Of a DNA stretch of 64,000 nt, positions 54,198-59,166 are shown piece by piece; within the stretch, counting starts at the first letter, position 1, and every line of letters starts with the position of its first letter. The DNA is from Sediminispirochaeta smaragdinae DSM 11293. Its GTDB lineage: Bacteria > Spirochaetota > Spirochaetia > DSM-16054 > Sediminispirochaetaceae. The stretch covers positions 1,798,001-1,862,000 of the forward strand of contig NC_014364.1 of NCBI RefSeq assembly GCF_000143985.1, read 5' to 3'. The translations under genes were made by a program, and so were the position numbers. Below the pieces are notes generated by a model. That model was not told the DNA's origin. It made no database searches and saw only the letters and a list, made by a program, of their open reading frames with translations.

Positions 54198-55457
54198 TCA
54201 AGAACCAAGTCGCCGGGCAGCTTCAAGAAGCAGGCGCCTGGCTGCGGCATCTTTCAGGCTCAAGGGCAGGTCGATCTCTTCTCCGTCTTTGAAAAAGAGG
54301 TGAAGCTGATTGGTTTCTGTCTCAAAACCGGATCCCTCTTTTGAGACATCGTTGACAGCAATCATATCGGCACTCGCCTTTTTCATCCTCGCAAGCGCAT
54401 CCTTACGAAGCTCCTCCTCGCTCACCTTATGCAGAGCCCTGAAGGCAATGAGGTAGGTTTTGGGAGAGAGTTCCTTGATCCTGTCGAGTATCTTTGGGGT
54501 CGGAGTCAGGGTGAGGTTAAGCTCCTTTCTCCCGTGGGTCGATATTTTGGTCGACGAGACCGAATCGCATTGCCAGTCGCCAACGGCTGCCGCCGCCACA
54601 TAGATATCGACATCCTTTTTGTCCAGGATCCGTTTGCTGGCAGCAAGAAGAGATTCTGATGTATCGCACCTGATAAGCTCTACGCCGGCGGGAGGCTTTA
54701 CACCGATCTTTCCCGCAAGAACCGTTACACGGGCTCCCGAAAGCATTGCCGTCCTGGCAATAGCCATTCCCATGCGTCCGGAGGCGTTGTTTGTGATCAC
54801 ACGAACAGGATCGATATATTCTACGGTTCTTCCCGCCGTGACCACGACATGCTTTCCCGAGAGCGGGGCCGAGTTCTGAAGCAAAAGAGGCAGGGCCGCG
54901 TGAAAAATGGTGTCGGGATCGGGGATCTTCGCCTTTCCCTCTTCGATTTTTGGATCAAGAACCGAGATTCCCAGTTTTCTCAGGCTTGCAATGTTTTGGA
55001 CCACCATGGGATGACGCCACATTGGCTCATGCATGGCGGGGACGATCAAAAGGGGAATACCCTGACCTATGGCGGTCGTCGCAAGGGTCGTCACCGTGGT
55101 GTCGTCTATTCCTGCGGCGATCTTGCCGATGGTATTGGCAGTAGATGGCGCGATGAGAAGGAGGTCAATCTTCTCCGGAACATCCCCTGCAAGGGCGACA
55201 TGTTCAATTTTGCCGGTGAGTTTTGTGATGGTTTCGTGACCTGTTGCCCACTCCATGAGGTCGGGATGGATGATACCGCAGGCGGCTTCGGTCATGACGG
55301 GGTAAACGTCGGCACCGTGACGCATAAGTTGTCTTGCCAGTTCCGGACTTTTCACCGCTCCGACACTTCCGCAAATACCAAGGGCAATCCTCTTGCCCGA
55401 AAGGCAATCGCTGGCAGTGCCGATGATATCCTTCGACGGATGATTATTCATGCTCAT
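54198..55457 (-). CDS. coaBC: phosphopantothenoylcysteine synthetase/decarboxylase CoaBC
   Basis: A 419-residue bifunctional enzyme that joins 4-phosphopantothenate to cysteine and decarboxylates the product to 4-phosphopantetheine. The CoaC half (1-180) has the flavin-binding GICGSVGAVKSPELARQLMR, the active His region IEHVALAGD, LLIAPSTANTIGKIA and IVPAMHEPMWRHP. Bacterial enzymes normally have PAMN where this has PAMH; I recall PAMH from archaeal ones. The CoaB half has VVTAGRTVEYIDPVRVITNN-ASGRMG and DIYVAAAAVGDW. It is last in the operon and overlaps the mfnA stop by 4 bp (ATGA), with GAGGAG upstream. Confidence 0.93.
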   Translation of the reverse strand: MSMNNHPSKDIIGTASDCLSGKRIALGICGSVGAVKSPELARQLMRHGADVYPVMTEAACGIIHPDLMEWATGHETITKLTGKIEHVALAGDVPEKIDLLLIAPSTANTIGKIAAGIDDTTVTTLATTAIGQGIPLLIVPAMHEPMWRHPMVVQNIASLRKLGISVLDPKIEEGKAKIPDPDTIFHAALPLLLQNSAPLSGKHVVVTAGRTVEYIDPVRVITNNASGRMGMAIARTAMLSGARVTVLAGKIGVKPPAGVELIRCDTSESLLAASKRILDKKDVDIYVAAAAVGDWQCDSVSSTKISTHGRKELNLTLTPTPKILDRIKELSPKTYLIAFRALHKVSEEELRKDALARMKKASADMIAVNDVSKEGSGFETETNQLHLFFKDGEEIDLPLSLKDAAARRLLLEAARRLGS

Positions 55458-56632
55458 GCTATTATCTCCTCGAGGTCATGTAAAAAGGCATCCAACATCT
55501 TTCTGCTTACATGCGGCATTACCGTGATTCTGAGAAAGCCGGGGAAGAGGCTGAGGGCCCAGCCGCGACCTCGCAGTCGGCGGGCCAGCTCGTCTGGATC
55601 GATCCTACGATGTTTTGTGGGGCTGAACCCTACTACGTTCATTTGCGGTTCGATTACGGCATCTACACCGCTCATGGAGCGTAATCGATCGTAGAGATAA
55701 CAGCTGTTTTCCATGCACGTTGCCACGGTTTCAACATAGCCTTTTCTTCCAAGACGATGTAACGTGGCCCAAATCGACGCCACCGAGGCCCCGGATCTGG
55801 TTCCCACGATGGTACGCTGTCGTGTTTTCCCTCCGGCAAGATAGCTCACTTCGGTTTCCGATGCCACCGCAGCATCGTGATTTCGAAAAACAATAGCGCC
55901 GGCCGGAATGGCACAGCGCCCCATTTTATGTGGATCAATGGTGATACTGCTAACACCCGGCAGGGAGAAATCAAAGGCTGGTGCGGTGTATCCTGCTTCG
56001 GCAAGGAAGGGCAGGACAAATCCGCCGAAGGCGGCATCAACGTGGAGAGGAAGCTTCCATGCCGTGGCCGCATCGGATATCTCGGTGATAGGGTCGACCG
56101 CCCCGAGACCTGTTGTCCCGGCAACTGCCACAAGTACCATGGTCTTATCATCTATTGCTTCGAGATATCGTTTCAGATCGACCCTGCCGTCATCCTCCAC
56201 CGGAATCTTACAAAGATCAAGGTCCATGATGTCGGCGGCCTTGTCGAACGAGAAATGGGCACTTTCGGGAAGTACCACCTTCCGTTTTTCTCTATGTTTT
56301 CGTTTGGCAGCCCAGAGGGCGATAAGGTTTGCCTCTGTTCCGCCCGTGACGATTGCGCCTTCCGCGCTCCGACTTCCCAATAGACGACCCAGCATCCCGA
56401 TTGTTTCCCGCTCCAGCTGCTGAAGCCGTGGATGCAGCCCCGGATCTCCTATATTTCGGTCGAGATAATGTTCATAGACCTTTGCACTGGTGGGGTGGGG
56501 AAGGGTACACATCGATCCGAGAATTCGCTCTCCCGAAAAAGAGAGATCACCCTCCAGTTTTCTGCCCAGCGCACCAAGTACATCGGCTTCCCCAGAGCCT
56601 TGAAGGGGAATTCCTTCTGTCGTATCTTCCAT
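55454..56632 (-). CDS. mfnA: MfnA-type PLP decarboxylase (probable aspartate 1-decarboxylase)
   Basis: A 392-residue group II PLP decarboxylase of the archaeal MfnA kind. The PLP lysine is in SSITIDPHKMGRCAIPAGAI, the cofactor-contact segments are GAIVTGGTEANLIALWAAKR and PLHVDAAFGGFVLPFLAEAG, and the N-terminal SMCTLPHPTSAKVYEHYLDR with NIGDPGLHPR is typical of MfnA. In Archaea this family decarboxylates tyrosine (methanofuran) or aspartate (beta-alanine for CoA). Between panB and coaBC, aspartate to beta-alanine is the logical role, replacing bacterial PanD. The start at 56632, with AAGG upstream, is 11 bp after the panB stop and fits the family N terminus; longer frames overlap panB. Confidence 0.9.
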   Translation of the reverse strand: MEDTTEGIPLQGSGEADVLGALGRKLEGDLSFSGERILGSMCTLPHPTSAKVYEHYLDRNIGDPGLHPRLQQLERETIGMLGRLLGSRSAEGAIVTGGTEANLIALWAAKRKHREKRKVVLPESAHFSFDKAADIMDLDLCKIPVEDDGRVDLKRYLEAIDDKTMVLVAVAGTTGLGAVDPITEISDAATAWKLPLHVDAAFGGFVLPFLAEAGYTAPAFDFSLPGVSSITIDPHKMGRCAIPAGAIVFRNHDAAVASETEVSYLAGGKTRQRTIVGTRSGASVASIWATLHRLGRKGYVETVATCMENSCYLYDRLRSMSGVDAVIEPQMNVVGFSPTKHRRIDPDELARRLRGRGWALSLFPGFLRITVMPHVSRKMLDAFLHDLEEIIA

Positions 56633-56642
56633 CGCCGCAACC

Positions 56643-57425
56643 TTAGTGATAGGTGTGAGCGGCGTCCGGGAAACTGCCGCTACGAACATCTTCCCCGTAG
56701 GAAGATACGGCCGAGCGAATTGTTGTTCTAAGATCTGCATAGGTTTTGACAAATTTAGCAAGATGCCCGCTGGTGAGTCCCAACATATCGTTTATGACAA
56801 GCACCTGGCCGCCGCATCGCGCTCCCGCCCCGATACCTATGGTGGGAATCGAGACCGCCGCGCTTATTCGTTCGGCAAGGGACTCGGGGATACATTCGAG
56901 GACAATGGAAAAAGCGCCGTGCTCTTCAAGTCTTTTTGCATCTTCTATCATGACTGCGGCGGACTCGGCATCCTTGCCCTGAACCCTGAAATTTTCCGCT
57001 GTCTGCGGAAGCAGTCCGAGATGCCCCATTACGGGAATTCCCGCAGAGCTAAGGGCCTCACAAACGACAGTATCGGCTCCTTCGAATTTTACTGCGTCCC
57101 CTCCCGCGTCCATCAGCCTCTTACCATTTTCGAGGGCCAAGGCGGCGTTCGAAAAGGAGCCGTAGGGCATATCGGCAACAACCGGCATATCCGGTGCCCC
57201 ACGGCGTACCATAGCGGTGTGGTAGGCCATGTGTTCGACCGTCACCCCTTTGGTCTCGTTTTTTCCCTGAACAACCATACCAAGGGTATCGCCGACGAGA
57301 ATCCAGTCCGCCTTCGCCTCCTGACAGATGGATGCAAAGGTTGCGTCATAGGCGGTGATCATCACGATAGGCGTTTTACTTTCCGTTACTTTATGCTTTT
57401 CTTGCCACTGCAGAATTCTATTCAT
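56643..57425 (-). CDS. panB: 3-methyl-2-oxobutanoate hydroxymethyltransferase PanB
   Basis: PanB adds a one-carbon unit from methylene-tetrahydrofolate to ketoisovalerate, giving ketopantoate. The 260-residue TIM-barrel protein has VMITAYDATFASICQEAKAD, the metal-binding VGDTLGMVVQG, TVEHMAYHTAMVRRGAPDMP, VVADMPYGSF, and the catalytic Glu region FSIVLECIPESLAERISAAV with GIGAGARCGGQVLVINDMLG. It starts with an ATG that overlaps the preceding stop by 4 bp. Confidence 0.96.
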   Translation of the reverse strand: MNRILQWQEKHKVTESKTPIVMITAYDATFASICQEAKADWILVGDTLGMVVQGKNETKGVTVEHMAYHTAMVRRGAPDMPVVADMPYGSFSNAALALENGKRLMDAGGDAVKFEGADTVVCEALSSAGIPVMGHLGLLPQTAENFRVQGKDAESAAVMIEDAKRLEEHGAFSIVLECIPESLAERISAAVSIPTIGIGAGARCGGQVLVINDMLGLTSGHLAKFVKTYADLRTTIRSAVSSYGEDVRSGSFPDAAHTYH

Positions 57426-58192
57426 GATGCATCTCCCGCAAGGGCTTTAAGTCTGGCCGAAATAAAACGCAGGGCCTCTGCAAAGGCCTTGTCATTGTCG
57501 AATCCGTCGAGAACGGTCAGACATTCGGTTTTGTTTAGTTTTTTGAGTTCGATCGCCGCCCTGGTCATTGCCGGGACCGCTCTGACGATATGATCCATAA
57601 TAGAGATCGAGGCGGTTCTGCTGGTGCGGCTCAGGGGATTCAGATCAATGGTGATAACCCGTTTACCCATCTTCACAAGGGCCTCGGTCCTGTCTCCATC
57701 CTCAAGGGGAACAAAGACAGTATCGGCAATTAAGATTCCCTCCGAATCGACCCGCTTGCGTTCGCTGCCTATCTCCGGAATTTGACCTTGGCGGGCTTCA
57801 TCGGTGCCGAGGATTTCTCTTGCCCCGGCCTTTTCCATTAGCTTTGTAATGGCCTCTATCCGCTCCCTGCTGCGGTAAAAAAGATTAATCTCCAGTTTTG
57901 CCCCGGTAGCTTCGGCAAGCTCGACCATCGCTTCGGGACAAAGAGCAGCAGCATTTCCATTTAGAGAAATGATCGGCCGCTCAGCAGTCAAAAGTGCCGC
58001 TGCCGCAGCCCTGATCGGTCCCAGCACACAGTCGGGAGTTTTTTCTCCTATCAAATAATCAAAGGCCTCTCCCCGCCCGTGGGCAATCAATCCTTCGGGG
58101 GCAAGGACCTTTGCATCGACCATATCGACAAGGTGTTCCCTCATCCGAATCGATTCATACCGGGGATGATCTTTCGGTAAAAATTCACTCAT
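57422..58192 (-). CDS. archaeal-type 4-phosphopantoate--beta-alanine ligase (phosphopantothenate synthetase)
   Basis: A 256-residue protein of the archaeal phosphopantothenate synthetase family (Pfam DUF137), which condenses 4-phosphopantoate with beta-alanine using ATP. The whole protein is of the family: PKDHPRYESIRMREHLVDMV, GLIAHGRGEAFDYLIGEKTP, PIISLNGNAAALCPEAMVEL, LEINLFYRSRERIEAITKLM, FVPLEDGDRTEALVKMGKRV and ITIDLNPLSRTSRTA. Bacteria normally use PanC on free pantoate instead. The ATG at 58192 has GGAGG upstream and overlaps the kinase stop by 8 bp; the longer frame to 58318 is not needed. It overlaps panB by 4 bp. The family is rare in Bacteria. Confidence 0.93.
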   Translation of the reverse strand: MSEFLPKDHPRYESIRMREHLVDMVDAKVLAPEGLIAHGRGEAFDYLIGEKTPDCVLGPIRAAAAALLTAERPIISLNGNAAALCPEAMVELAEATGAKLEINLFYRSRERIEAITKLMEKAGAREILGTDEARQGQIPEIGSERKRVDSEGILIADTVFVPLEDGDRTEALVKMGKRVITIDLNPLSRTSRTASISIMDHIVRAVPAMTRAAIELKKLNKTECLTVLDGFDNDKAFAEALRFISARLKALAGDAS

Positions 58193-59126
58193 GGATAACA
58201 CATCCTCCCTGTTTCGACGAGGTAGTGGTAAAAAGATACCCCTTTTCCTCGCTTCTGGAAAGAGCCTGCGCCTCTGCTTCGGCACTCTCCCTGTCGGGAA
58301 ACAAGGCAAAGGCGGCATTCCCGAACATTAGCATTGCCGTAGGCGTCCCAATTGCGTCGAAGTGATCGAAAAGCCTGCGCACTTCGGGGGTAATGAGCCC
58401 TGAACGTTCATCAAAGGCCCTACTTGCCCAGAGAAAGGCTTCGAGCGTCGGAGTGCGAAGAAGATCTTCGATCAGCTTTTCACCGGTATCGTTGATACGT
58501 CGCCTGATATCGGGATCCGAGAGGGCGGAACTTGTCGAAATTTTACGATAGACGACGAAAAGAAGGTTGAGATCGCCGGAAATGGGTATCGATACCACCT
58601 CGCCTGTTCCGGGAGCCCCCGGTTTCCTGCGAATTTCAACACCGCCACAGAATTCACCAATGACCGTTCCGAGTCCTGTCTTACACAGGACTTCGGCGCG
58701 ATGGGCCATTGTACCTGCCTCCTCTGCGGAGAGGGGAGAACCAAGGGCTCGGTTAAGAGCCAGCGCCAGGCTGAGAGCCCCTGCTCCGCTGCTTCCGAAG
58801 CCGCTGCCTTGCGGAATTTCGATCGAATGAGATATTTCTCTGATGACAACATCCTTCAAAAGGGCGGCATCTTGAAAGAGAGCGATGAGCCTCTTGCTTA
58901 CCACAAGGTCGCTACGTTCTTCGCCGTTTGAACGGTAGATTGTCTTCTCCTCGGCACTGTCGCCTCCGGACTGTGAAGCGGAGGAGAGCGTGACCGTGGT
59001 CGTTACCCCTCTTGCAATGGAAAAACCGGCCCCGATCGAGCCCTTGCTGTCTATTGAATCCTCATCGTCCCGTATGGAAAAGAGTCCCGTTATATGTCCT
59101 GGGGAAAAAGCCTTTGCAGTAATCAT
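58185..59126 (-). CDS. archaeal-type pantoate kinase (GHMP kinase)
   Basis: A 313-residue GHMP-superfamily kinase of the archaeal pantoate kinase type, making 4-phosphopantoate. The N terminus AKAFSPGHITGLFSIRDDED and GSIGAGFSIARGV, the ATP-binding motif IPQGSGFGSSGAGALSLALA (P-x-G-x-G-S-S) and the C-terminal GTPTAMLMFGNAAFALFP all fit that family. Other GHMP kinases (homoserine, mevalonate) were considered, but direct coupling to the synthetase gene settles the assignment. It is the first gene of the five-gene CoA operon. No clear ribosome binding site is seen before the ATG. Confidence 0.92.
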   Translation of the reverse strand: MITAKAFSPGHITGLFSIRDDEDSIDSKGSIGAGFSIARGVTTTVTLSSASQSGGDSAEEKTIYRSNGEERSDLVVSKRLIALFQDAALLKDVVIREISHSIEIPQGSGFGSSGAGALSLALALNRALGSPLSAEEAGTMAHRAEVLCKTGLGTVIGEFCGGVEIRRKPGAPGTGEVVSIPISGDLNLLFVVYRKISTSSALSDPDIRRRINDTGEKLIEDLLRTPTLEAFLWASRAFDERSGLITPEVRRLFDHFDAIGTPTAMLMFGNAAFALFPDRESAEAEAQALSRSEEKGYLFTTTSSKQGGCVIHE

Positions 59127-59136
59127 AACCGGATCA

Positions 59137-59166
59137 ACGATACTTCAGCAGGAGGGAAAAAGTCAA
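59137..59166 (-). promoter_or_regulatory. possible promoter of the CoA operon
   Basis: On the minus strand TTGACT (59166-59161) and TATCGT (59142-59137) are 18 bp apart. The predicted start would be only a few bases before the pantoate kinase ATG, implying a nearly leaderless message, which agrees with the missing ribosome binding site. The -10 box is weak. Confidence 0.35.

Follow-up and report, generated by a model that had tools for sequence, protein, structure and literature searches.

In which order does a spirochaete phosphorylate and condense the precursors of coenzyme A (CoA), and where did it obtain the genes for doing so? This question is raised by a run of five minus-strand genes of Sediminispirochaeta smaragdinae DSM 11293, formerly Spirochaeta smaragdinae, at positions 59126-54198 of the window (the whole stretch of 64,000 nucleotides that we analyzed, positions 1,798,001 to 1,862,000 of the single contig of 4,653,970 bp, NC_014364.1). 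From their reading frames and family matches, the genes encode, in this order, PoK, PPS, PanB, an MfnA-type decarboxylase and CoaBC. The bacterial PanB-PanC-PanD-PanK-CoaBC route starts and ends with the same compounds and uses PanB and CoaBC enzymes of the same broad families, but it condenses before phosphorylating; from what is known of the families found here, PanB, a reductase, PoK, an MfnA-type enzyme, PPS and CoaBC together yield 4'-phosphopantetheine, with phosphorylation preceding condensation. We consider it very likely that, in this organism, the middle steps of the bacterial CoA pathway have been replaced by an operon descended from archaea, with a donor from the lineage of the Bathyarchaeota and, probably, one entry into the sampled spirochaetes. 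The features concerned are:

58185..59126, minus strand: pantoate kinase (PoK), GHMP superfamily, 313 aa (profile and solved-structure matches)
57422..58192, minus strand: phosphopantothenate synthetase, or 4-phosphopantoate--beta-alanine ligase (PPS), 256 aa (profile and solved-structure matches)
56643..57425, minus strand: PanB, ketopantoate hydroxymethyltransferase, 260 aa (TIGR00222, PanB tree)
55454..56632, minus strand: MfnA-type pyridoxal phosphate (PLP) decarboxylase, proposed aspartate 1-decarboxylase and beta-alanine source, 392 aa (TIGR03812)
54198..55457, minus strand: CoaBC, phosphopantothenoylcysteine synthetase/decarboxylase, archaeal type, 419 aa (TIGR00521, motif)
59137..59166, minus strand: weak candidate for a sigma-70-like promoter just upstream of PoK (9/12 matches)

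A preliminary description of the window had named the same five genes, with PPS as DUF137, and all frames and families were recovered. We chose ATG starts throughout, setting aside a longer PPS open reading frame (ORF) that starts at 58318 and a TTG start for MfnA at 56761. With these boundaries, PoK and PPS overlap by 8 bp, while PPS and PanB, as well as MfnA and CoaBC, overlap by 4 bp; the overlaps are thus as first described, and the gap between PanB and MfnA is 10 bp rather than 11 bp. Because all junctions are this tight, it is likely that the five genes are co-transcribed and translationally coupled, in agreement with the earlier view of one coupled unit.

For the kinase and the synthetase, profiles, solved homologues and conserved residues all point to the archaeal PoK-PPS pair that had been proposed. 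The top NCBIfam matches of PoK are two pantoate kinase models, at 139 and 137 bits, followed by mevalonate kinase at 35 bits; likewise, the solved pantoate kinase 6JBC is matched with E = 5e-36, and mevalonate kinases with values around 1e-3. PPS matches PF02006 (the PPS_PS domain) with 244 bits at a gathering cutoff of 26.4 and PRK13761 with 353 bits at a cutoff of 227, and reaches 299.6 bits with the equivalog NF041123, just under its cutoff of 300; the solved PPS chains 4MB0 (E = 1.2e-72) and 3WDK (E = 6.2e-72) align with it over 248-249 residues. Both these alignments and that of PoK with 6JBC cover most of the protein length. Among columns that are at least 95% conserved in archaeal rows, PoK keeps 22 of 22 (n = 43) and PPS 52 of 53 (n = 72), the exception being a change from L to I. 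The remaining proteins lie well above their family cutoffs: PanB with 282 bits (TIGR00222, cutoff 207.55), the MfnA-like protein with 432 bits (TIGR03812, cutoff 299.4) and CoaBC with 348 bits (TIGR00521, cutoff 219.7). At the same conservation threshold, PanB keeps 44/46 columns (38 rows), CoaBC 26/28 (38 rows) and the MfnA-like protein 93/108 (only 7 rows). The last also carries a DPHK motif, whose lysine we take to be the PLP lysine. Pfam assignments agree with those of NCBIfam. Enzymes of the MfnA family vary in substrate, accepting tyrosine or aspartate; considering the operon context and that PanD was not found, we propose aspartate as the substrate here.

The preliminary description had called for a search of the genome for panC, panD, coaA and coaX. 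In profile searches with positive controls, none of the four was found in S. smaragdinae, and PanC, PanD and CoaA were each found in 0/4 genomes of its order; PPS was present in 3/4 of these genomes. Across the phylum, PPS occurred in 9 and PanC in 155 of 296 sampled spirochaete genomes, with no overlap between the two lists and 132 genomes in neither. The genes of the archaeal route are therefore present in a spirochaete, as had been claimed, without being peculiar to this one.

The gene arrangement was compared among 15 spirochaete loci, S. smaragdinae included. PoK directly precedes PPS in all 15; all five genes stand together in 8 (G003 and G002 among them), three or four of the genes are found in another 4, and PoK and PPS lack the other three as neighbours in the remaining 3, which belong to family f2. 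In two loci, those of G002 and L067, CoaBC is truncated by the edge of the contig. Two genomes of family f2, G009 and G052 (L021 and L020), are hybrids in which an archaeal PoK-PPS pair is accompanied by PanB and separate CoaC and CoaB genes some 4-6 kb away on the opposite strand; their CoaC carries the bacterial motif (the stretches involved are approximately 1.2-3.7 kb and 7.5-9.5 kb of L020/L021). Beyond the spirochaetes, a contig scan yielded at least 524 confirmed PPS relatives, the best 80 of which were used: 72 archaeal, 4 spirochaete and 4 other records labelled bacterial. Within these best 80, the five genes are all nearby in 5 of the 72 archaeal loci, 4 of them from Bathyarchaeota. 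The Bathyarchaeota loci L027, L039, L044 and L059 share the order PoK-PPS-KPR-PanB-MfnA-CoaBC, where KPR is ketopantoate reductase (the MfnA frame of L059 is a fragment). Two Cloacimonadota loci, L033 and L037, have the same order, again with KPR between PPS and PanB, although the PoK gene of L033 is truncated and that of L037 falls outside the stretch. Since other spirochaetes and archaea have this set of genes as well, the operon is not a chance arrangement.

The order in S. smaragdinae is thus the Bathyarchaeota order apart from KPR, which is missing between PPS and PanB. The earlier wording of a "complete" operon, running without interruption from ketoisovalerate, consequently does not hold, and the reduction of ketopantoate must be encoded elsewhere in the genome. 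A profile search of the genome returned 4 PanE-like reductases, 2 of them above the cutoff; PanE-like proteins are encoded at C1:4430239-4431135, C1:498656-499558 and C1:2107269-2108105. Three of these proteins were placed in a reductase tree, for which no other bacterial reductases were selected as reference, L013 was left out and a long-branch warning was issued; they sit on branches of 2.1-3.0 changes per column, away from the operon reductases, and are not of the operon type. That the operon KPR was merely relocated within the genome is therefore unsupported, subject to the same long-branch warning. A PanE-like protein may serve S. smaragdinae in this step. In the spirochaete metagenome-assembled genomes (MAGs) L058 and L066, a reductase of the archaeal group is retained, divergent to PoK.

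From the predicted activities of the five proteins, we propose the following pathway. PanB would convert ketoisovalerate to ketopantoate, which the reductase encoded elsewhere would turn into pantoate; PoK would phosphorylate this to 4-phosphopantoate. The MfnA-type enzyme would supply beta-alanine by decarboxylation of aspartate, and PPS would join it to 4-phosphopantoate, giving 4'-phosphopantothenate and bypassing free pantothenate. Finally, CoaBC would produce 4'-phosphopantetheine, with cysteine as input. The donor of these genes would have belonged to the archaeal lineage whose present-day representatives are the Bathyarchaeota, in which the same gene order is found with KPR as a sixth gene.

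The preliminary description had suggested testing archaeal nesting protein by protein. Our trees, all of them unrooted, place PoK, PanB and the concatenated proteins with archaea. In a careful PoK tree of 65 rows, all 15 spirochaetes form one clade (support 100/99) within a 44-row group (98/97) that holds 28 archaeal rows and otherwise only L026, a 7.1 kb contig of a Hydrothermota MAG. In a careful five-protein concatenation of 61 rows, the 14 spirochaetes make up a single clade (100/100), which falls in a group of 23 rows (100/99) together with six Bathyarchaeota, one Thermoplasmata MAG, the Cloacimonadota locus L037 and L026; the remaining 38 rows are archaeal without exception and stand outside this group, and a quick tree agrees. 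PanB of S. smaragdinae falls in an 18-row group with the operon PanB of Bathyarchaeota, Cloacimonadota and one Thermoplasmata MAG, with 99 in the Shimodaira-Hasegawa-like approximate likelihood ratio test (SH-aLRT), and an approximately unbiased (AU) test rejected a single clade of all 43 spirochaetal PanB rows (p = 0.0002). An earlier version of this test (p = 0.0009) used groups picked after inspection of the tree; the present one takes all spirochaetal rows. In the CoaBC tree, 29 outgroup spirochaete rows lie on one side of a branch with SH-aLRT 100, and 7 operon rows lie with the archaea on the other; not all genomes of the outgroup loci have PanC. The MfnA tree has only 16 rows, with 7 spirochaete rows on one side (support 96). 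Several rows of the CoaBC/MfnA, PoK and concatenation trees have an unusual amino acid make-up, so that the exact branching is uncertain. The descent of the operon from archaea, as first interpreted, is thus borne out for PoK, PanB and the concatenation; for CoaBC by itself, tree and motif favor it, and an AU test does not reject native ancestry.

The trees of operon proteins left out the duplicates L001-L010 and L165 (the PPS tree also L011-L015) and any row below the length limit of each tree, such as CoaBC of L063, of L066 (whose match is split in two) and of L067. For the concatenation, taxa had both PoK and PPS and at least three genes. L037 was kept by hand, L020, L021, L022, L026 and L038 were named for keeping, L033 is absent (its PoK being cut) and L066 was removed; PanB of L019, L020, L021 and L066 and CoaBC of L020 and L021 were left out as being of other origin by tree or motif.

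A number of our own results weigh against archaeal descent of the operon as a whole, and we consider them together with the alternatives on which they bear. Taken alone, the PPS tree (91 rows) does not resolve the position of the S. smaragdinae protein (six changes for bacteria, two forced); for this reason the PoK tree and the concatenation were used. For CoaBC, an AU test does not reject one clade of all spirochaetal sequences, operon and outgroup together (p = 0.12). It could therefore be argued that the operon was assembled piecemeal, either from archaeal PoK and PPS, and perhaps also archaeal MfnA and PanB, placed beside a native CoaBC, or from genes acquired at different times. Mixed spirochaetes do exist, as seen in the family f2 loci without the other neighbours, in the split CoaC and CoaB with bacterial-motif CoaC of G009 and G052, and in L019 and L066 with PanB of another group. 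We nevertheless regard piecemeal assembly as unlikely: the AU test on PanB stands against it, as does the gene order shared with Bathyarchaeota, and the S. smaragdinae CoaBC, besides being separated with the archaea from the 29 outgroup rows, reads PAMH...EGKAK, as in the Bathyarchaeota rows shown, where the bacterial motif is PAMN...ACG. This motif is of the archaeal type in 10 of 14 CoaBC frames of PPS-bearing spirochaetes; 28 of 30 outgroup spirochaete frames have PxMN, with ACG in both of those displayed, and the 39 archaeal frames divide into 17 with MH, 22 in which the pattern was unmatched and none with MN. Tree and motif thus favor an archaeal origin of CoaBC taken alone, the AU test notwithstanding, and we infer that CoaBC was transferred along with the operon.

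The direction of transfer is the second point to be weighed, given that unrooted trees do not polarize it and that the 72 archaeal records among the best 80 of at least 524 relatives reflect sampling biased toward sequences like the S. smaragdinae PPS. In addition, the accessible portion of PMC6650551 names Bathyarchaeota among the exceptions lacking PoK and PPS. We found both genes in Bathyarchaeota records, which speak against such a lack as a rule for the group; of two chromosome records, L034 (1.50 Mb) and L059 (1.68 Mb), the latter carries PoK and PPS. The listing would suit an operon that is old in bacteria, retained there from an ancestor or passed on to Bathyarchaeota as recipients, and so would its presence in Cloacimonadota, a Hydrothermota MAG, spirochaetes and Bathyarchaeota alike, as well as a clade of spirochaetes and Cloacimonadota L037, which the AU test does not reject (p = 0.52). 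We judge this history very improbable, as archaea lie both inside and outside the 23-row group of the concatenation, and a clade of spirochaetes, L037 and L026 is rejected (p = 0.012), though the latter result hinges on L026, which is nested among Bathyarchaeota and may be misbinned archaeal DNA. Transfer would thus have run from archaea to spirochaetes. Two or more entries into bacteria were also considered, and this claim was dropped: with spirochaetes and L037 not rejected as one clade, a second entry hangs on L026 alone. If L026 is misbinned, a single entry into bacteria is possible.

A third set of points concerns function. The roles of the enzymes are read here from their sequences alone, and the PoK scores of 139 and 137 bits fall below the cutoffs of both NCBIfam models (500 and 380 bits), which we read as narrow because both model names point to single archaeal lineages. 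A search for CoaW, the type II pantothenate kinase, gave no match, but neither did it in the control genomes. Furthermore, one of the four genomes of the order, G001, which is of the same family but another genus and 68% complete, has CoaX, with no PPS found. The five genes might accordingly be thought to serve other ends, as a GHMP kinase of another substrate and a tyrosine or glutamate decarboxylase beside a normal pantothenate kinase that escaped detection, whether divergent or of type II; the differing substrates of the MfnA family would allow this. We find such a function hardly credible, considering that the nearest solved relatives are PoK and PPS, that PanC, PanD, CoaA and CoaX were not found and that the gene set corresponds to the steps of one pathway. 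As to G001 itself (L011, G001:C256:2991-3737), in which PanC was not found either, it may represent an incomplete genome or a lineage that salvages pantothenate.

The predicted chemistry of the S. smaragdinae operon is that of the known archaeal pathway. In Thermococcus kodakarensis, whose CoA pathway comprises PoK, PPS, KPHMT, KPR, aspartate decarboxylase and CoaBC, the enzymes leading from pantoate to 4'-phosphopantothenate are the same, as is the type of enzyme proposed to supply beta-alanine; the S. smaragdinae set differs in sitting in a bacterium, as one operon and without KPR. The Bathyarchaeota operon has the five genes in the same order, with KPR in addition, and its bearers rank with the nearest archaeal relatives in the concatenation. 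The Cloacimonadota operon is bacterial as well, and keeps an archaeal-type KPR that S. smaragdinae does not. In the accessible portion of PMC6650551, PoK and PPS are described as unique to archaea, and our literature search, which mostly did not extend to subscription papers, found no report of either in spirochaetes or other bacteria. The literature searched likewise has no description of the pathway as an operon in bacteria in which the bacterial counterparts were not found. In S. smaragdinae, which is in culture and has a finished genome, part of an essential pathway seems to have been replaced by an operon from the other side of the domain boundary.

Pantothenate kinase is the usual control step of bacterial CoA synthesis, and the archaeal type of KPR is inhibited by CoA. 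In S. smaragdinae, the operon reductase is missing, and CoaA and CoaX were not detected. We hold it possible, though on balance doubtful, that CoA synthesis in these spirochaetes bypasses free pantothenate and that they are unable to use external vitamin B5, that flux is controlled at an undescribed step and that the route is a cassette swappable across domains. The apparent exchange of the operon predicts that vitamin B5 is not usable as a CoA precursor by these bacteria and that metabolic reconstructions that seek only PanC and pantothenate kinase would label them auxotrophs; it also makes S. smaragdinae a bacterial system for studying how a phosphorylate-first pathway is controlled. According to the accessible portion of PMC3035371, S. 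smaragdinae requires yeast extract, for which a vitamin mixture is no substitute. This need is compatible with a failure to use pantothenate, although many other causes are possible.

Single operon genes seem to have been exchanged in some spirochaetes, judging from PanB of the PPS-bearing L019 (1565-2443) and L066 (7252-8106), which falls in a different PanB group from the S. smaragdinae operon protein. Among the archaea, the Thermoplasmata MAG L054 (2158-5530) carries a PoK-PPS-KPR-PanB run of the Bathyarchaeota type, reflecting either inter-archaeal transfer or misbinning; L096 ("bacterium AUK014"), which the PPS tree nests within Desulfurococcales, may likewise be misbinned. Six spirochaete genomes of families f20 and f38 (G006, G019, G031, G050, G057 and G064; completeness 60-90%) gave no CoaBC match and are absent from both the PanC and the PPS lists; PanB of G006, G031 and G064 groups with archaeal rows, and these genomes possibly have divergent CoA genes or are incomplete.

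Promoter and terminator scans of the operon region were uninformative: four sigma-70-like sites occur where shuffled sequence gives a mean of 2.9, so that the candidate site upstream of PoK is no evidence by itself. Base composition gave no sign of a recent transfer, with a G+C fraction of 0.53-0.55 in the operon and 0.47-0.56 in its surroundings. Upstream of the operon, an ORF starts on the plus strand, and downstream, a convergent gene for an ABC-transporter ATPase comes to its end.

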